A stretch of 64,000 nt of DNA from Salinisphaera sp. T31B1. GTDB lineage: Bacteria > Pseudomonadota > Gammaproteobacteria > Nevskiales > Salinisphaeraceae. The notes below the pieces were generated by a model. That model did no database searches. It had not been told where the DNA came from and saw nothing but the letters and a program-made list of their open reading frames with translations. Location of the stretch: the NCBI RefSeq assembly GCF_040361275.1, contig NZ_APNH01000002.1, positions 62,001-126,000 on the forward strand. Direction: 5' to 3'. How positions within the stretch are numbered: the first letter of the stretch is position 1; each line of letters begins with the position of its first letter. The translations under genes were made by a program, and so were the position numbers. Positions 13,914 through 23,587 of the stretch are shown here, in pieces.

Positions 13914-13928
13914 GACGGTGTCTCTGAA

Positions 13929-13950
13929 TCGTCATATTATTGTCATCTGC
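13929..13950 (+). promoter_or_regulatory. Pho box upstream of phoB
   Basis: Two direct repeats TCGTCAT (13929-13935) and TTGTCAT (13940-13946), 11 bases apart and with an AT-rich spacer, match the CTGTCAT-type PhoB half sites in 5 and 6 of 7 positions. The site lies 29 bases before the chosen phoB start. It implies autoregulation of phoBR under phosphate limitation. It also makes a TTG start at 13940 implausible, because that codon lies inside the box. Confidence 0.8.
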
Positions 13951-13978: not shown

Positions 13979-14689
13979 ATGAAACCTAGCCAGATGCAAC
14001 ATAAACACGTGCTGATCGTCGAAGACGAAGCCCCAATCCGGGACATGATTCGATTCGCTCTTGAGCGTGCCGGCTTCGAGGTCGCCGAGGCGGAGGATGC
14101 GCAGAGCGCACGCCTGGCGATCGCCGAACGGCGTCCCGACCTGATGCTGCTGGACTGGATGTTGCCCGGCGTGTCGGGCGCCGAATTCGCGCGCGAGCTG
14201 CGCCGCGACGAGCTGTGCGCGGACATGCCGATCATCATGGTGACCGCGCGCGTCGACGAGGACGATCGCGTGCGTGGGCTGAATATAGGCGCCGACGACT
14301 ATGTCACCAAACCGTTTTCGTCTTCGGAGCTGGTCGCCCGGGTCAGAGCGGTGCTGCGTCGCAGCCTGCCGGGCGGCGAAGACGAAACCCTGGAGCTGGA
14401 AGGCCTGGTTCTGGATGCCGCCAGCCAGCGGGTCGCCGCCGGTGAGGCGCCGGTCAAGCTCGGACCGACCGAATACCGCCTGCTTCGGTTTTTCATGAGC
14501 CATCCCGAACGGGTGTATTCACGCGAGCAGATGCTCGACCGGGTCTGGGGTCAGAACGTGTTCGTCGAGGAGCGCACGGTCGATGTGCATATCCGTCGGC
14601 TGCGCAAGGCGCTGGCCCCGCACGGTTTCGACGGCTTCATTCAGACCGTACGGGGCAGCGGCTATCGCTTTTCCAGCAAGAGCATGTAG
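13979..14689 (+). CDS. phoB: Phosphate regulon response regulator PhoB
   Basis: This OmpR/PhoB-type regulator has 236 residues. The receiver domain opens with [13 protein letters not shown]. The phospho-acceptor Asp is in [10 protein letters not shown] at about residue 59, and the conserved Lys is in DDYVTKPF. The C-terminal winged-helix domain ends with VRGSGYRFS, and its recognition helix region is [12 protein letters not shown]. It activates genes carrying Pho boxes when phosphorylated by PhoR. Starts at 13979 or 13994 are both possible, as neither has a strong ribosome site; 13994 would match Pseudomonas PhoB length best. phoR follows after 15 bases, and a Pho box lies upstream. Confidence 0.94.
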
Positions 14690-14704: not shown

Positions 14705-16030
14705 GTGAGCATGCCCTCGATGGGGGTGCGTCGCGTCTGGCGTCGCGAGTCGCTGATCATCGTGACGTGGCTTGCCGTCAGCGCGGTGGTCGGTTTGCTG
14801 GTCGGACGTGTGCTGCTGTGTGTGCTGCTGGGCGTGAGCGCCTATCTGGCCATGCAGCTGATCTATGCCTATCAGCTGCACCGCTGGTTGACTTCGGATC
14901 GTATCGAGCCCTCCGACGGGTTCGGCGTATGGCAGGAAATCTATACCGAGCTGTACCGGCTCAAGCAACGCAACCGCAAGCGCAAGAAGCGCTTGAAGAG
15001 CATCGTCCACGAATTCCAGGCTTCGACCGCGGCGCTGCCGGACGGTGCGGTCGTTCTGGATTCACAGGGCCGGATCGTGTGGTTCAACCAGGCTGCCGCG
15101 GCACTGCTGGCGCTGCGTACGCCACAGGATCTGGGCCAGCGAATCGCCAACCTGCTTCGTCATCCGCATTTCGCCAGCTATCTGGCCGACCCGGGCGACG
15201 GCGGGGAGCTGGAGATGCCGTCGCCACTCAACGAAGCCGACACCATCCTCCTGCGTCGGATCCCCTATGGGAACAATCAGCGTCTGCTGATTGCGCGCGA
15301 CATCAGCGAGCAGAAGCGGCTCGAACATACGCGGCGAGATTTTGTCGCCAATGCGTCGCACGAACTGCGTACTCCGTTGACGGTGCTGCGCGGCTATCTC
15401 GAGATGATGGAAGAAGAAACCGCCGACGGCGCGGCACTGTCGAGCTGGCGCGCGCCGATTCGGGAGATGGGCGAGCAGTCACGGCGGATGAATCGCATCA
15501 TCGAAAGTCTGCTCAAGCTCGCGCGGGTGGAGGCCGAAGGGCTTCAGCAGCGGCAGGAGCGGGTGGACGTCGGGGCGATGGTCACGTCCCTGGTCGACGA
15601 TATCCGTCTAGCGGCCGGCGCCGGCCATACCATCGTCACCGATCTCGAGCCCGGTCTGTCCCTGTACGGGCGCACCAGCGAACTGGAAAGCGTGTTTTCC
15701 AACCTGTTGTCCAACGCCGTGCGCTATACGCCCGCCGAGGGCCATATCCATGTGCGCTGGTGGTCCGACGACGAGGGCGCCTATTTCTCGGTCGCCGACG
15801 ACGGGCCCGGCATCGACGCCGTACACCTGCCGCGCCTGACTGAACGTTTCTACCGGGTGGACGCGGGCCGCAAGGCCAGTGCCGGCGGGACCGGCCTCGG
15901 TCTGGCAATCGTCAAGCATTGTCTGGAACACCACGACGCCGATCTGCGGATCGACAGCCGCCCCGGCGAGGGCACGGTGTTCACCTGTCATTTCCCCGCG
16001 CAGCGCCGTCTGTCCCAGCGCGCGGCCTGA
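14705..16030 (+). CDS. phoR: Phosphate regulon sensor histidine kinase PhoR
   Basis: The 441-residue inner-membrane kinase has two adjacent N-terminal hydrophobic helices (about residues 17-53) with almost no periplasmic loop, as in PhoR. A basic linker RNRKRKKRLKS and a PAS domain (about 95-205) follow. The H-box FVANASHELRTPLT places the phospho-His at about 219. N-box LLSNAVRYT, G1 DDGPGI and G2 GGTGLGLAIVKH form the ATPase domain. Start is GTG 14705, 15 bases after phoB. PhoR normally senses phosphate through PstSCAB and PhoU, and pstCAB-phoU lie 3.5 kb downstream. Confidence 0.95.
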   Translation: MSMPSMGVRRVWRRESLIIVTWLAVSAVVGLLVGRVLLCVLLGVSAYLAMQLIYAYQLHRWLTSDRIEPSDGFGVWQEIYTELYRLKQRNRKRKKRLKSIVHEFQASTAALPDGAVVLDSQGRIVWFNQAAAALLALRTPQDLGQRIANLLRHPHFASYLADPGDGGELEMPSPLNEADTILLRRIPYGNNQRLLIARDISEQKRLEHTRRDFVANASHELRTPLTVLRGYLEMMEEETADGAALSSWRAPIREMGEQSRRMNRIIESLLKLARVEAEGLQQRQERVDVGAMVTSLVDDIRLAAGAGHTIVTDLEPGLSLYGRTSELESVFSNLLSNAVRYTPAEGHIHVRWWSDDEGAYFSVADDGPGIDAVHLPRLTERFYRVDAGRKASAGGTGLGLAIVKHCLEHHDADLRIDSRPGEGTVFTCHFPAQRRLSQRAA

Positions 16031-16178: not shown

Positions 16179-16218
16179 TCGTCATGAAACCGTCACCGGC
16201 ACGTCATCCGGTTGTCTC
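16179..16218 (+). promoter_or_regulatory. Tandem Pho box, four units, ahead of the porin gene
   Basis: Four direct 7-mers stand in exact 11-base register: TCGTCAT (16179), CCGTCAC (16190), ACGTCAT (16201) and TTGTCTC (16212). Each keeps the GTC core of the CTGTCAT PhoB half site, and the register equals the known PhoB-dimer repeat. The last unit ends 86 bases before the porin ATG, which leaves room for a -10 and leader. This predicts strong, cooperative PhoB activation. The match is by eye. Confidence 0.82.
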
Positions 16219-16304
16219 AGGCCGGCGGTAACTTCCGCGGCGTGCCGTTGGCGCCACGGGACGCGCCGACGGCTGTAACCGCCGATTTTCCAGGGAGACA
16301 ACCA

Positions 16305-17594
16305 ATGAAGACCACGCCTTACAGGCTCGGCGCAATCGCGCCTCGATCCGGACTGATCGGGGCTACGGCCCTGGTCGGGGCCTCGATGTTCGCGGGCCCG
16401 GCGATGGCCAGTGACACGACCATGCAGCTCATCCAGATGATGCGCGACAACGGTAGCATCACACAGGCCCAGTACAACCAGCTCAAGGCCGCCGCGGCTG
16501 ACGACGAACAGCAGCAGGCACACGCGCAGAGCGCGCGACCGGTGGCGGATCAGGCGTCGCTGGAAGCGCGGGTCGACGACAAGCTCGCTGAAATGGAGTG
16601 GGCATCGAAGATCAAGCTCAAGGGCGATATCCGTCTGCGCTACCAGTACGGTGATAACAGTGGCCGGGAGAACGCTGCCGGCAACAATATCGATCGCAAT
16701 CGGGGCCGCGTACGCTACCGGCTTGGGATCATCACCACGCCGATGGATCGTCTGGAGGTCGGTGCCGGCCTGGCCAGCGGCGGGTCCGATCCGCGTTCGA
16801 CCAACCAGACCTTCAGTGACAACTTCAGTTCGAAGGGGATCAACCTCGACTACGCTTATGCGCAGTACGAGTTCACCGACTACTTCGCTGCCATCGCGGG
16901 CAAGTTCAAGTTCGGCGATTATCTGTGGATCCCTACCGACGTCATGTGGGACGGCGATATCAACCCCGAGGGTGTGTCCGCGCGCCTGAACTTCGACAAC
17001 GCCCTCGGCGAGAGTTTCGCCAACGGCGGCCTGTGGGTGCTCAACGAATTCGGCGGCAACAACAGCGACCCGTATCTGTATTACGGCCAGCTCGGCCAGC
17101 AGCTGGCCAGCGGCAATGTGTTCGCCACGCTGGCCGGTACCTGGTACGGCTTCGAGAACACCGCCCAGCCAGGGACATTCAACCCCGACTACAGTGCGGG
17201 CACCAATACCGACGACCAGTTCGGTATCGTCAACGTCAACGGCGAACTCGGCACCAAGTTCGCCGGTGGCAAGGCGTCGCTGATCGGCGAATACCTGCTC
17301 AATACCGAGACGGACACGAACGAGGACACCGGGTTCGCCTTCGGTGCGAAAGTCGGCATCGAAAGATGGTCGTTCAAGTACATCTATGCAGATCTGGACG
17401 CCAACGCCGTGCCCGATATCTTTCCGGACTCGGACCGGCTGGGCGGGGCGACCGATATGAAAGGCCATGAAATCGCCGGCGCCTATGCGCTGACCGATGT
17501 CGTTGAGCTGGGTCTGGATTACTACAACACCGAACGCAAGTCGATCGATCTGGACGAGCAGATCCTCCAGGCCGATCTGTCGGTCAAGTTCTGA
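16305..17594 (+). CDS. Outer-membrane porin, putative porin family, Pho-controlled
   Basis: This 429-residue precursor has a signal peptide (cleavage near PAMA-SD, about residue 38), a short helical/Gln-rich region (about 40-95), then a beta-barrel with alternating hydrophobic strands. It ends in DLSVKF, with a C-terminal Phe typical of barrel insertion. Segments like LKGDIRLRYQY and KFKFGDYLW recall the Porin_5/DUF3373-type putative porins. ATG 16305 follows GGGAGA with good spacing. The four-unit Pho box upstream and the phoBR genes before it suggest a phosphate or polyphosphate-selective channel made during starvation, analogous in role (not sequence) to PhoE/OprP. That role is inference. 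Confidence 0.88.
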   Translation: MKTTPYRLGAIAPRSGLIGATALVGASMFAGPAMASDTTMQLIQMMRDNGSITQAQYNQLKAAAADDEQQQAHAQSARPVADQASLEARVDDKLAEMEWASKIKLKGDIRLRYQYGDNSGRENAAGNNIDRNRGRVRYRLGIITTPMDRLEVGAGLASGGSDPRSTNQTFSDNFSSKGINLDYAYAQYEFTDYFAAIAGKFKFGDYLWIPTDVMWDGDINPEGVSARLNFDNALGESFANGGLWVLNEFGGNNSDPYLYYGQLGQQLASGNVFATLAGTWYGFENTAQPGTFNPDYSAGTNTDDQFGIVNVNGELGTKFAGGKASLIGEYLLNTETDTNEDTGFAFGAKVGIERWSFKYIYADLDANAVPDIFPDSDRLGGATDMKGHEIAGAYALTDVVELGLDYYNTERKSIDLDEQILQADLSVKF

Positions 17595-17600
17595 CGATGA

Positions 17601-17626
17601 GCCGGGCGGCGAACCCGCCGCCCGGC
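17601..17626 (+). terminator. Perfect GC-rich hairpin after the porin gene
   Basis: An 11-bp perfect stem (17601-17611 with 17616-17626) and a 4-base loop begin 6 bases after the porin stop. No T-run follows. It probably protects the porin mRNA 3' end or attenuates read-through into the next gene rather than terminating fully. Either would give a higher porin than lipoprotein level. Confidence 0.6.
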
Positions 17627-17690
17627 CGTCGCATGTTCCGATGCTCGACCCGGGTCATACCCCGGTCTTCCCCATATCCAGGATCAACCC

Positions 17691-19364
17691 ATGTACATTC
17701 AAACTTGGCGGTGGTCGGCCTGTGTGGCAGCCACCGTACTTTGCGTCGTCGTGGCTGGCTGCAGCGACAGTGACGACCGCGTTGCCGCCGGGCCGGGCCA
17801 GGCCGATGACATCGATGGTTCCCCCGCCGCGGTTACGCTTGCGATCAGACAGGCCGGGCGGTATCAGGTCGATCCGTTCGCTTTCGACGCGGGCGCGGCG
17901 GAAATCGTGGCCCACGATGCGCGCCTGAACCGCCTGTTCGTGGTCAATTCCAGTGCGCGTACGGTGGACGTGCTGGATATCAGCGACGTCGACAACATTC
18001 TGAAAATCGGCGAGATCGACGCCACGGCCGAGGGGGCCTCGGCGAACAGCGTAGCGGTCGCCGGCACCACGGTGGCCGTCGCCATCGAGAATGCCGACGC
18101 CCAGGCGCCCGGCCATGTCGTGTTCTACAACAGCAGCGACCTGAGCCGGCTCGGCGAGGCTACGGTGGGCGCGCTGCCCGACATGGTGACCTTCACGCCC
18201 GACGGGCAGCGCGTGCTCGTGGCCAACGAAGGCGAACCCGACGACGACTACAGCCGAGATCCGGACGGCTCGATCAGCGTGATCGATGTCAGCGGCGGTT
18301 TTCAGACCCCGTCGGTGACCACCATCGGTTTCCAAGCGTTCAACGATCGAGCCGATGCACTGCGCGCGCAGGGCGTGCGGATCTTCGGCCCCGGCGCGAG
18401 CGTGGCCCAGGATCTGGAGCCGGAATATATTGCCGTGGCCGATGACAGCACGACCGCCTATGTGAGCCTGCAGGAAAACAATGCCGTGGCGGTAATCGAC
18501 CTGGCCTCGTCGAGCGTGACCGCGATCAACCCGTTGGGCTACAAGGATCACAGCGTGGCCGGCCAGGGCATTGACCCGAGCAACGAGGACGGATTCAACA
18601 TACGCAGCGTCCCGGTGTTCGGTATGTACCAGCCCGATACCATTGCCGTGTTCGAAGCCGATGGCACGCGGTATCTGCTCACCGCCAACGAAGGCGACGC
18701 CCGCGACTACGACGGCTTCAGCGAAGAGGCCGATGTGAAGGATCTGGCGCTCGACCCGGTAAGTTTCGGTGACGCTGAGGCTCTGCAGGCCGATGCGGCG
18801 CTGGGCGATCTGAAAGTCACGCGCATGCTGGGCGCGAGCGGGCGCGAGTCCGCCGACGGCGTTGAGTTCTACGACGGGCTGTATGCCTTTGGTGCGCGTT
18901 CGTTCTCGATCCGGCGAGCCGATAGCGGCGCGCTGGTCTACGACTCGGGTGACGACTTCGAGCGCATCACCGGCGCGCGCTATGGCGATGGCTTCAACGC
19001 CGACAATACCGATAACGACGGGGACGATCGGTCCGACAACAAGGGCCCGGAACCCGAGGCGCTCGCGTACGGGCGCGTCGGAAGCCGTTCGTATGCATTC
19101 ATCGGCTTCGAACGCATGAGCGGGTTCGTCGTCTATAACATCACCGAGCCGGCCGAACCGTCGTTCGTGGCTTATATCAACAACCGCGATCTCACGATCG
19201 AGCCGGGATCCGGTGACGCCGGCGACCTCGGTCCGGAGAGCATCGTGTTCATCGATGCCGAGGACAGCCCCGACAGGGCCGGCGCGCTGTTGGCGGTCGG
19301 CAATGAGGTCAGCGGATCCACCACGCTCTACCGGCTTGAGACGGTCCCCGCGACCGGCGACTGA
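17691..19364 (+). CDS. Choice-of-anchor I type beta-propeller lipoprotein
   Basis: This 557-residue protein has a lipoprotein signal ending in VVAGC (Cys about residue 24), so it should be anchored in the envelope. The body is a repeated beta-propeller with signatures of the choice-of-anchor I family: FVVNSSARTVDVLDIS, VLVANEGEPDDDY, ANEGDARDYDGF and GPEPEALAYG. Acidic Asp-rich loops (DNTDNDGDDRSDNKGPEPE near 440) may bind Ca2+. Relatives are often annotated as alkaline phosphatase-like, without proof. AGGA precedes ATG 17691. It sits between the Pho-controlled porin and pstC, where pstS is usually found, so a role in phosphate or phosphoester capture is possible; this is inference. Confidence 0.85.
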   Translation: MYIQTWRWSACVAATVLCVVVAGCSDSDDRVAAGPGQADDIDGSPAAVTLAIRQAGRYQVDPFAFDAGAAEIVAHDARLNRLFVVNSSARTVDVLDISDVDNILKIGEIDATAEGASANSVAVAGTTVAVAIENADAQAPGHVVFYNSSDLSRLGEATVGALPDMVTFTPDGQRVLVANEGEPDDDYSRDPDGSISVIDVSGGFQTPSVTTIGFQAFNDRADALRAQGVRIFGPGASVAQDLEPEYIAVADDSTTAYVSLQENNAVAVIDLASSSVTAINPLGYKDHSVAGQGIDPSNEDGFNIRSVPVFGMYQPDTIAVFEADGTRYLLTANEGDARDYDGFSEEADVKDLALDPVSFGDAEALQADAALGDLKVTRMLGASGRESADGVEFYDGLYAFGARSFSIRRADSGALVYDSGDDFERITGARYGDGFNADNTDNDGDDRSDNKGPEPEALAYGRVGSRSYAFIGFERMSGFVVYNITEPAEPSFVAYINNRDLTIEPGSGDAGDLGPESIVFIDAEDSPDRAGALLAVGNEVSGSTTLYRLETVPATGD

Positions 19365-19435
19365 GCCGATCGCGCCCGCGCCGCGTCAGGCGCGGGCGGT
19401 CGTTCCTGTCGAATGGCCGGCAAGCCTCCGGTGAC

Positions 19436-19467
19436 ATCGGCCGCGGCATCGCCGCGGTCGGTTTTTT
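19436..19467 (+). terminator. Intrinsic terminator between the lipoprotein gene and pstC
   Basis: CCGCGGC (19441-19447) pairs with GCCGCGG (19451-19457) around a 3-base loop, and the stem extends outward by up to five weaker pairs. A run of six T (19462-19467) follows. It should end the porin-lipoprotein transcript, so pstCAB-phoU needs its own promoter or read-through. Confidence 0.88.
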
Positions 19468-19531
19468 CATGACGGGTTGCGTATCATGAGCGCCGATACG
19501 CCCGCTTGCCGCTCGTACCAGGATCCGCGTT

Positions 19532-20761
19532 TTGGACACCAGCCAGACTCTGCTCGTTTTTGTCGGCGGTCTGCTGCCCATGGCAGTCATGGCCTTCGTG
19601 CTCGGTCGCCGCAAGGCACTGATCGCCGAAGGGCAGGGCACGCGTCTGCATTCGCTGCCCGGCCAGTACGGGGTTTACGTCGCAACCTGGATGGCGCTGC
19701 CGGCCGTCGCGATCGGTTTCGTGGCCGGGGCGGCGAGTCTTTTCGGCGTGCGCGTACCCACCACCCCCTTCGTGCTCGCTTTCGCTCTGGTCGCGGCCGC
19801 GATCGGCTGCGCGCTCGCCTTGCGGCGGGTGGAGCCGTCACTGCGCGCACGCAATGCGATCGAACGGTTTGTCTACTGGGCCTTGTTTGCGGCGTCCCTG
19901 GTATCGATCCTCACCACGCTGGGGATCATCCTCTCGATCGTGTTCGAAGCGCTCAAGTTCTTTCAGCAGGTCAGCGTCTGGGAGTTCGTGACCGGCACAC
20001 AGTGGTCGCCGGTGGCCACGTTCCGTCCCGGTCAGGCGTCGGCGAGTTCGCAATTCGGCTCGGTACCGTTGTTCGCCGGCACGTTCATGATCACGGCTAT
20101 CGCGATGCTGGTAGCCATTCCGGTCGGGTTGTTCGCCGCGATCTACATGTCCGAATACGCCACCCGACGGGTGCGCACGATCGCCAAGCCGCTGCTGGAG
20201 ATTCTGGCCGGCATTCCGACCGTGGTCTACGGCTTTTTCGCCGCGATCACGGTCAGCCCCCTGATCGTGCAATTCGCTCATTCGGTGGGGCTGGAGGCTT
20301 CGTATACCAACGCGCTGGCGCCGGGTCTGGTGATGGGAATCATGATCATCCCGTTCATCTCGTCGCTGTCGGACGATGTCATCAACTCGATCCCCAATAG
20401 CCTGCGCGAAGGCTCTTATGCGCTGGGCATGACCCAATCGGAGACGATCAAGAAGATCGTCCTGCCGGCCGCGTTTCCCGGCATCATGGCGGCCTCGCTG
20501 CTCGGGATTTCGCGCGCGCTGGGCGAGACGATGATTGTGGTCATGGCCGCCGGTCTGCGGCCGAATTTGACCTGGAACCCGCTCGAAGACATGACCACCG
20601 TGACCGTTCGCATCGTCGACGCGCTGACCGGCGATCAGTCCTTCGACAGCCCGGAGACGCTGGCCGCTTTCGCGCTCGGGCTGGTGCTGTTCGTCGTCAC
20701 GCTCGCCCTGAACCTGGTCTCGATCGTGGTGATCCGAAAGTTCCGCCAGGCTTATGAATAG
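19532..20761 (+). CDS. pstC: Phosphate ABC transporter permease PstC, long form
   Basis: This 409-residue integral membrane protein is the first permease subunit of the high-affinity phosphate importer. The long N-terminal region (two or three extra helices before residue 115) is typical of the ~400+ residue PstC found in Pseudomonas and Vibrio relatives. The ABC permease core shows EILAGIPTVVYGFFA and the EAA-loop LREGSYALGMTQSETIKKIVLPAAFPGI. The start appears to be TTG 19532, with AGGA (19520-19523) upstream. pstA follows after 24 bases. No pstS lies before it. I saw no clear Pho box in the 64 bases between the upstream terminator and the start. Confidence 0.95.
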   Translation: MDTSQTLLVFVGGLLPMAVMAFVLGRRKALIAEGQGTRLHSLPGQYGVYVATWMALPAVAIGFVAGAASLFGVRVPTTPFVLAFALVAAAIGCALALRRVEPSLRARNAIERFVYWALFAASLVSILTTLGIILSIVFEALKFFQQVSVWEFVTGTQWSPVATFRPGQASASSQFGSVPLFAGTFMITAIAMLVAIPVGLFAAIYMSEYATRRVRTIAKPLLEILAGIPTVVYGFFAAITVSPLIVQFAHSVGLEASYTNALAPGLVMGIMIIPFISSLSDDVINSIPNSLREGSYALGMTQSETIKKIVLPAAFPGIMAASLLGISRALGETMIVVMAAGLRPNLTWNPLEDMTTVTVRIVDALTGDQSFDSPETLAAFALGLVLFVVTLALNLVSIVVIRKFRQAYE

Positions 20762-20785: not shown

Positions 20786-21955
20786 ATGAACCAGGGCATA
20801 TCACTGGCGCCGTCGCGGCGACTCAAGCGGCGCTATCGCGCCGAGAGGCGCTTCAAGGCCTGCTGTCTGGGTGCGCTGCTGCTAGCGCTGGCGTTCCTGC
20901 TGCTGTTCTTCACCGACATGATCCGACAGGGCTATTCGGCGTTCGTGCAGACCGAAATCCGTGTGCCGGTGACCTATAACGCCGATACCGTCAAATTTAC
21001 CCGCGAAGCGGTCGACCCGGCGATCGCGCCGATGGTGTCGCGCGCGTTTTTCCGCCAGATCCCCCGTCAGGTCGCCGCCGAGCCGGCGTTGATGGGGACC
21101 ACACAGCCGCAGTGGGTCGTGGCCACGACGGATATCGATCAGTACCGCAAGGGCCATATCGACTCGCTCGATACGGACAAGCAGGCGGTGCTCGACCGGC
21201 TGACCGAAGCCGGGGACGTGGCGTTCGGCTTCAACAAGTCGCTGTTCTTTTCGGGCGATTCGAAGATACCGTCGAATGCCGGGCTGTGGTCGGCGTTCGT
21301 TGGCTCGATCTACGTGATGCTCGTGGTGCTGGCAGTGAGTTTTCCTATCGGTGTCGCGACCGCGATCTATCTGGAAGAGTTCGCGCCTGATAATCGCGCG
21401 ACCCAGGCGATCGAGATCAATATCAACAACCTGGCGGCGGTGCCGTCGATCCTGTTCGGCCTGCTCGGGCTGGCGATCTTCATCAATTTCTTCGGGGTGC
21501 CACGCTCGTCGGCATTGGCCGGCGGTCTGACGTTATCGCTGATGACGCTCCCGGTGATCATCATCAGCACGCGCGCCGCGCTGCGGGCGGTACCGCAGAA
21601 TATCCGTCAGGGGGCGCAGGCGGTCGGTGCCTCGCGCTGGCAGGCGGTACGCGATCATGTGTTGCCGTTGTCGCTGCCGGGTATCCTCACCGGTACCATC
21701 ATCGGCATCGCGCAGGCGATGGGCGAAACCGCGCCGTTGCTGCTGATCGGCATGATCGCCTACATCCCGGATGCGCCGACCAACATGACCCAGGCGGCCA
21801 CGGTGCTGCCGGCACAGATATTCACCTGGGCCGGCATGCCCGAGCGCGCCTACGTGAGTCTTACCGCGGCCGGTATTCTGGTGTTGCTGAGTTTGCTGAT
21901 ACTCCTCAATGCGGCTGCCGTGTTGTTACGCAATCGCTTCGAGCGGCGCTGGTAG
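20786..21955 (+). CDS. pstA: Phosphate ABC transporter permease PstA
   Basis: The 389-residue second permease subunit has an N-terminal helix (about residues 27-45), then a large periplasmic insert of about 130 residues. The standard permease core follows, with [27 protein letters not shown] and the EAA-loop [27 protein letters not shown]. The insert makes it longer than the E. coli subunit (296) and matches long PstA forms that accompany long PstC. A strong GGGAGGA ribosome site precedes ATG 20786. pstB starts 47 bases after its stop. It couples to PstB in the cytoplasmic membrane. Confidence 0.95.
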
Positions 21956-22002: not shown

Positions 22003-22836
22003 ATGCCGTCATCGCGTTCGGAACCGGCGCAATCGGGCCCGGTATACAGGCAGAGCATGGAGCAGCCGCGGGTGAAACAGGCGATCAAGATGAGCGTACG
22101 TGACCTGTCGGTCTGGTACGGCGACAAGCAGGCGCTGCATGGGGTCTCGATGGACGTGGCCGAAAACGAGGTCACCGCACTGATCGGTCCCTCGGGTTGT
22201 GGCAAGTCGACCTTCCTGCGTTGTCTGAACCGTATGAACGACCTGGTCCAGGGCATACGCATCGATGGCGAAGTGGCATTCGACGGCGAGAACATCTACG
22301 CCTCGCATGTCGATGTCGTCGAACTGCGATCGCATATCGGCATGGTGTTCCAGAAGCCGAACCCGTTTCCCAAGAGCATCTACGACAATATCGCCTACGC
22401 GCCGCGGATTCTCGGCAAGGTCCGCAAACGCACCGAAATGGATGATCTGGTCGAGGAGTCGCTCCAGCGGGCGGGGTTGTGGAGCGAGGTCAAAGACCGG
22501 CTCCAGATGCCGGGGCTGGCATTGTCGGGCGGTCAGCAGCAGCGGTTGTGTATCGCCCGTGCGATCGCGGTGAGTCCGTCGGTGCTGCTCATGGACGAAC
22601 CCTGCTCGGCGCTTGATCCGGTGGCCACGGCCACCGTCGAACAGCTCATCGACGACCTGAAGGACAATTACACGATCGTGATCGTGACGCACAATCTGCA
22701 ACAGGCCGCACGCGTGGCCGGATACACCGCGTTCTTCCATCTGGGCAACATCGTCGAGTTCTCCGATACCGACTCGTTGTTCACGCATCCGCGCGAGAAA
22801 CGCACCGAGGATTACATCACCGGCCGCTATGGCTAG
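22003..22836 (+). CDS. pstB: Phosphate ABC transporter ATPase PstB
   Basis: The 277-residue ATPase subunit shows Walker [21 protein letters not shown], the PstB-specific Q-loop [18 protein letters not shown], signature [14 protein letters not shown], Walker [14 protein letters not shown] and the H-loop [11 protein letters not shown]. It powers phosphate import through PstCA. The first ~28 residues are variable and polar; internal ATGs at 22057 and 22090 are possible starts. Its last 8 bases overlap phoU, indicating translational coupling. Confidence 0.97.
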
Positions 22837-23587
22837 AGAGTTCGATATGGAAAAGGTGGGTCTGGAGAAACACACGTCCAAGCAGTTCGATGCCGATCTG
22901 GAAGACGTGCGTGAACTGGTGCTGGCCATGGGCGGCCTGGTGGAACAGCAGATCGCCGATGCGGTGCGTGCGCTGATCACCGGCGAGGGCGGTCTTGGCG
23001 AGGATGTCGTCGCCGGCGATCGCGAGGTCAACCGCATGGAGCTGGAGATCGACGAGGAATGCACGCGTATTCTGGCCCGGCGCGCGCCCCAGGCCGGCGA
23101 TCTGCGTCTGATCATCGCGGTGGCCAAAACGATCACCGATCTCGAGCGCATCGGCGACGAGGCCGAGAAGATCGGCCGCATGGCCACGCACCTGGCCAGC
23201 TACGATCGCCCGAAAAGCGCGTTCCGCCAGATCGAGGTCCTCGGTCGGCACGTTCGCGAAATGCTCCGTGATGCGCTGGACGCCTTCGCACGCCTGGATT
23301 CGGAGGCCGCAGTGCGGGTCTCCCAGGCCGACGCCGAGGTGGATCGTGAATACGAGGGCGTGGTGCGCCAGTGCATCACCTACATGATGGAGGATCCGCG
23401 CACCATTCGGCACATGCTGGACGTGCTGTGGGCGGTCAAGGCGCTCGAACGCATCGGCGATCACTCGACCAACATCGGCGAATACGTGGTCTACTTCGTC
23501 GAGGGCAAGGACGTACGCCATATCGGCGTTGAGGCCATGGAAAAGGAGGTCGCCAACAGTCCGCGTCGTCGTAATCAATCCGAATGA
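22829..23587 (+). CDS. phoU: Phosphate signalling protein PhoU
   Basis: This 252-residue protein has two PhoU helical bundles. Each carries the metal-binding E/D-rich signature: [19 protein letters not shown] (about residues 99-117) and [20 protein letters not shown] (about 200-219). PhoU links the Pst transporter to PhoR and keeps the regulon off in phosphate excess. ATG 22829 overlaps the end of pstB. It is the last gene of the pstCAB-phoU unit; the next gene (mrcB) starts 67 bases on. Confidence 0.96.

Follow-up and report, generated by a model that had tools for sequence, protein, structure and literature searches.

A probable phosphate-starvation operon in Salinisphaera combining a porin and a predicted atypical alkaline phosphatase

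The porin and lipoprotein genes located between phoR and pstC in the window, the whole stretch of 64,000 nucleotides analyzed here, probably form a phosphate-starvation operon, in which a PhoB-switched outer-membrane channel and a surface phosphatase of the atypical alkaline phosphatase type (PhoA-aty) would feed Pst. This reading builds on the computed Pho box and its conservation, the identities of the genes, homology to phoA, the fold, the invariant acid motifs and the gene order of relatives. In the proposed mechanism PhoB-P would bind the tandem Pho box at 16179–16218 when phosphate is low, and the porin and the lipoprotein would then be transcribed together. The porin, with its presumed selectivity, would give phosphate and small phosphoesters access to the periplasm, the outer-membrane lipoprotein, a predicted PhoA-aty propeller, would cut phosphate off organic esters either at the surface or after their entry, and the freed phosphate would be taken up by Pst. 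The gene arrangement is new, and so is the link of a domain named only by its anchoring to Pho-controlled phosphatases. The pair is a genus-level one, and its porin and lipoprotein are both of known kinds. The first-pass annotation had presented it as a module new to these families, which did not hold: a PF16930 porin was already known to be PhoBR-dependent (PMC5082522), and the lipoprotein falls by its sequence within the PhoA-aty superfamily.

The gene order of the locus is phoB, phoR, Porin_5 porin, choice-of-anchor I lipoprotein, pstC, pstA, pstB and phoU. The position of a porin and a choice-of-anchor I lipoprotein between phoR and pstC, as proposed earlier, was borne out by the matches to PF16930 and PF22494/NF038117 and by the NCBIfam profiles, which named the flanking genes. 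The features in window coordinates are as follows.

13918–13946, plus strand: Pho box of three units upstream of phoB, autoregulation (top three- and four-unit Pho score in the window; phoB starts 44 bp downstream)
13988–14689, plus strand: phoB, response regulator (TIGR02154, 1e-104)
14705–16030, plus strand: phoR, sensor kinase (TIGR02966, 7e-122; PF11808)
16179–16218, plus strand: four-unit tandem Pho box of the porin–lipoprotein operon (units in register with seven relatives)
16229–16234, plus strand: putative -10-like element TAACTT, a weak consensus match (alignment with congeners)
16305–17594, plus strand: outer-membrane porin, Porin_5 short form (PF16930, 5.1e-28)
17601–17626, plus strand: perfect 11-bp hairpin in the porin–lipoprotein gap, without T tail (folding z -5.5)
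17691–19364, plus strand: choice-of-anchor I lipoprotein, predicted PhoA-aty-type atypical alkaline phosphatase (PF22494/NF038117; cyanophage phoA homology; AlphaFold model)
19436–19470, plus strand: intrinsic terminator downstream of the pair (hairpin 19436–19462 and T run)
19532–20761, plus strand: pstC (TIGR02138)
20786–21955, plus strand: pstA (TIGR00974)
22003–22836, plus strand: pstB (TIGR00972)
22829–23587, plus strand: phoU (TIGR02135)

Antisense to the porin, an open frame of 428 amino acids (window 16182–17468, minus strand) was also present, and looks like a GC-rich artefact.

The units of the operon Pho box start at 16179 (TCGTCATGAAA), 16190 (CCGTCACCGGC), 16201 (ACGTCATCCGG) and 16212 (TTGTCTC), and the last of them ends 86 bases upstream of the porin start. 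Three of the four contain GTCA and the fourth GTCT, the 11-base spacing confirming the four-unit tandem box in register that had been described from the letters. When ranked with our own consensus score, the array at 16179–16218 was the second-best four-unit array on both strands of the 64 kb, the best being the phoB array at 13918. Three exact GTCA units in register were found in only four places in the 4.36-Mb genome. In the genome search, exact or one-mismatch sites preceded phoB, the porin–lipoprotein operon, ppk1, a PlcP-like metallophosphoesterase and a 5'-nucleotidase-like lipoprotein. The motif has its positive control in the sites before the last three of these genes. Several sites with one mismatch fell within or close to unrelated genes and look like chance matches. 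The exact E. coli Pho box pattern had no match in the genome, as it is too strict for a GC-rich one. An exact three-unit box was also seen at C4:89336 (L005), with no obvious phosphorus gene downstream, and the box upstream of the PlcP-like gene (C1:1180814, L002) suggests phosphate-controlled lipid remodelling.

The operon Pho box exceeded the local background in every Salinisphaera genome tested, and the box and its spacing to the porin were kept in six congeners, where the porin belongs to another family. Also the TAACTT of the window aligned with TAGCTT, TAGTTT or TAACGT of the congeners at the same distance from the last Pho unit. Tandem 11-base units upstream of the operon, the feature by which membership of the PhoB regulon was tested, are thus present, and together with their conservation they support the Pho control that had been proposed for the pair. 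In the five congeners keeping the gene order, the porin–lipoprotein gap was without a Pho-like site and pstS had its own, and the gap in the present genome had a weak two-unit match.

The hairpin in this gap (17601–17626) has 11 pairs and the loop AACC and folds far better than shuffled sequences (z -5.5), and the pair is followed by a terminator consisting of a hairpin at 19436–19462 and a T run; both structures had been noticed in the first-pass annotation and both were recovered. Because it has no T tail, the gap hairpin is not a classical terminator. It may protect the 3' end of the porin mRNA or cut read-through as a partial stop, so that the porin would exceed the enzyme. In at least one congener (L070) the same gap contains a GC hairpin with a T run behind it. 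No consensus promoter was found before pstC, and the terminator at 19436–19462 lies upstream of it. The window locus lacks pstS (19365–19531), which the congeners with the locus have at this position with its own Pho box; the locus has lost both the gene and its box, which the first-pass annotation had passed over. An orphan pstS-like gene related to the pstS of the congeners is present at C1:35043–35876 and has no clear Pho box; the genome also contains another complete pst set, at C1:437–441 kb.

The porin was assigned to Porin_5 (PF16930) with 98 bits against a cut-off of 22 (5.1e-28) and is the sole gene of this family in the genome, while the profile search with PF07396 (Porin_O_P, OprP/OprO) gave no match in it. 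Porin_5 is an ordinary Pho porin. Sampling of 20 short Porin_5 loci over Gammaproteobacteria placed 10 of them with phoBR, pst or phoU. Phosphate depletion in Pseudomonas induces a PF16930 outer-membrane protein that the phoBR mutant lacks, and a PF16930 porin is among the most abundant exoproteins of P stress (PMC5082522). These results agree with the phosphate-related porin suggested earlier. The Porin_5 proteins of Pseudomonas (PPUBIRD1_1354 / PFLU4536) share with the window porin the family and the role of a Pho-dependent starvation porin, whereas the window porin is a short form situated within the phoBR–pst locus and has a phosphatase-like lipoprotein downstream.

Five congeners (G074, G075, G078, G080 and G083) had the order phoB-phoR-porin-lipoprotein-pstS-pstCAB-phoU, with the part that carries pstC on another contig in G074 and the contig beginning at phoR in G078, and the two genes are therefore not scattered away from pho/pst in all close relatives. 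The slot porin in all five was PF07396, the phosphate-selective porin O/P, and not Porin_5; tblastn with the window porin gave no match in the slot, the open reading frames there representing another porin family. In a sixth congener (G076) the PF07396 porin and pst were present and the lipoprotein was absent. The OprP/OprO porins of these five lipoprotein-keeping congeners and of the sixth thus have the same slot and the same promoter as the window porin, which differs in not being recognised as PF07396. The slot was occupied by Porin_5 in the window, in G073, where the adjacent pst set is a different one, and in a member of the sister genus (G069, before pstC). Altogether, at least three porin families occupied the porin slot at phoBR–pst. 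As both porin types have the Pho box at a conserved distance, the promoter has stayed and the porin has been exchanged, i.e. swapped between unrelated families under a kept promoter and neighbours. Tree support (0.4) was too low to name the ancestral porin, and overall charge failed to separate the two families (pI 4.2–4.5). Between phoR and pstS of a member of another family of the order (G045, L102:7575–8876), a PF13609 Porin_4 gene was located on the opposite strand.

The lipoprotein has the lipobox VVAGC and matched PF22494 (3e-126; 422 bits against a cut-off of 32) and NF038117 (1e-165; 552 against 300). Its only relatives among 50,697 phage records were cyanophage phoA 'alkaline phosphatase' genes (tblastn 3e-6), which adjoined pstS in all four records examined. 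PF22494 matched a cyanophage PhoA protein at 8.8e-17 and the cyanophage phoA PHROG matched the window lipoprotein at 1.7e-19. Furthermore, hhalign of the lipoprotein family against cyanophage phoA gave an E of 4e-35 over 363 columns and retained most of the acid motifs, at an identity of only about 25–30%, and the S. elongatus control genome also gave matches to PF22494. PMC11098088 reports a distant homology between the phoA of Prochlorococcus and the atypical PhoA found in freshwater Synechococcus, and the cyanophage phoA would be of the same type. PhoA-aty proteins share four D/E-rich motifs according to Lin 2015 (PMC4548154). On sequence grounds the lipoprotein belongs to the PhoA-aty superfamily and is a predicted phosphatase; activity is known from distant cyanobacterial and algal members, and no record of a tested activity was found for its own clade. 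The PhoA-aty proteins (PhoA of Synechococcus PCC 7942, cyanophage and picocyanobacterial phoA, and the algal ones) have in common with the lipoprotein the sequence superfamily, secretion, starvation control and, probably, conserved D/E-rich motifs. The lipoprotein differs from them as a short single-domain proteobacterial lipoprotein of predicted activity, in an operon with a porin and with PhoB-type boxes. It had been suggested earlier that the lipoprotein captures or hydrolyses phosphoesters; the PhoA-aty homology makes hydrolysis the likelier prediction and mere capture the less likely one.

The domain was repeatedly found together with 5'-nucleotidases. At six loci from this order and in Skermanella it stands behind a 5'-nucleotidase, either in one reading frame or directly adjoining, and the Skermanella fusion also includes an Exo_endo_phos domain. 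Fusions or neighbouring genes of the two kinds occur in cyanobacteria and other phyla as well. In Synechocystis, phoA is in an operon with the nuclease nucH (PMC1906773), and the separate 5'-nucleotidase-like lipoprotein of the present genome has a Pho box of its own. All these fit a lipoprotein that acts as a phosphodiesterase or nucleotide phosphatase for nucleic-acid phosphorus, with a 5'-nucleotidase and an extracellular nuclease, and not as a general phosphomonoesterase. This is nevertheless unlikely, as a fusion tells of shared use and not of substrate, and many members stand alone. The 5'-nucleotidase-like lipoprotein with the Pho box has 717 amino acids (L105:5720–7873, C2 about 957.7–959.9 kb), and relatives carry its homologue as a fusion with the choice-of-anchor I domain.

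For the preferred PhoA-aty-type phosphatase, the AlphaFold model gave a beta-propeller (pLDDT 89.6, pTM 0.88) with six repeats of P-D/E ... N/Q-E (acids 71, 164/180, 245/262, 316/334, 456/474 and 516/539). The repeat acids were invariant in 54 family sequences across many phyla, and no invariant His or Cys was found in the mature domain of these. The invariant acids probably form a carboxylate metal centre with Ca2+ or a similar metal. The third match in Foldseek was the propeller phosphotriesterase 5hrm of Sphingobium. The other top Foldseek and VIA matches were mostly generic WD40 and YVTN propellers, not enzymes, so that the fold alone says nothing on catalysis, and the sequence search of solved structures gave only an S-layer propeller of note. 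In PhoX a Cys is a ligand of the Fe-Ca cofactor. The PhoX Pfam profile had no match in the lipoprotein, and a PhoX-like Fe-Ca enzyme was rejected because the mature domain has no conserved Cys. PhoX and 5hrm resemble the lipoprotein in the propeller fold and the acid-rich centre, but the lipoprotein family has no invariant Cys or His and its metal site is thus expected to be unlike theirs. A lipoprotein binding phosphate or phosphoesters uncut, for surface capture or for delivery to the porin, would agree with these mostly non-enzymatic propellers and with acids that could hold Ca2+ for structure only. It is still less probable than a role in nucleic-acid phosphorus, being opposed by the homology to proteins called alkaline phosphatases, and shown to be such in distant members, and by the association with hydrolases such as 5'-nucleotidases.

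The lipoprotein family was present in about nine of the 14 Salinisphaera genomes and absent from four or five. In G073, G077 and G079 (L068, L076 and L069) the gene was located elsewhere, beside AdeT-type solute-binding proteins and with no detectable Pho box, and in G073 the phoBR-Porin_5-pst locus was away from it. One lipoprotein gene adjoined phoU in another family (L060). Conservation of the pair across Gammaproteobacteria was rejected, the lipoprotein gene being near pst in none of the 26 genomes of the class sample outside the order. The porin and the lipoprotein are not fixed partners: all five other order-keeping Salinisphaera have the other porin family, and elsewhere the lipoprotein is usually away from pst. 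Plasmid-borne choice-of-anchor I genes were found near toxin-antitoxin genes in Azotobacter chroococcum and an environmental Acinetobacter (L111, L112), so the family can be mobile.

Pho sites were also scored in the 200 bases upstream of family genes outside the Salinisphaera pst loci and compared with those upstream of neighbouring genes. A score of at least 12.5 was reached by 24 of the 63 family upstreams and 15 of the 452 controls (Fisher 1e-14), similarly at higher thresholds; this threshold was picked by eye, so the test without a threshold deserves the greater trust. With one gene per genus, a median of 12 of the 37 genera had a site (threshold-free Mann-Whitney p about 3e-5). At least one family gene with a Pho box, even far from pst, was detected in 16 of the 37 gammaproteobacterial genera tested. 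The sites clustered about 42–59 bases before the start codon, and the backward motif was found in five of the 63 upstreams, a slight rise due to composition. The boxes were unevenly distributed, with a strong signal in the order, in Marinobacter and in Acinetobacter and a weak one in the wide class sample (4/23). A chance arrival of the lipoprotein gene downstream of the Pho porin of this genus, with no phosphate role, is highly improbable, since the genes mostly unlinked to pst outside Salinisphaera and the possible lack of a Pho box in G073, G077 and G079 are outweighed by the phoA homology and by the excess of Pho boxes that the family as a whole shows away from pst.

Bacteria, archaea and phages carry the choice-of-anchor I domain in many functionally uncharacterised proteins. 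Tentatively, it could represent one phosphate-starvation phosphatase family with a new metal site (six acid-motif repeats, no His/Cys), placed in Salinisphaera behind an exchangeable outer-membrane phosphate channel. PhoA-aty had no defined HMM according to PMC11098088, and no link of PF22494 or NF038117 to phosphatases was found in the literature searched, so surveys of organic-phosphorus genes may overlook the family in proteobacteria. The locus offers an example of a Pho promoter keeping its neighbours while the porin is exchanged between unrelated families, and the lipoprotein suggests a function, open to testing, for a widespread domain that the databases name by anchoring alone.
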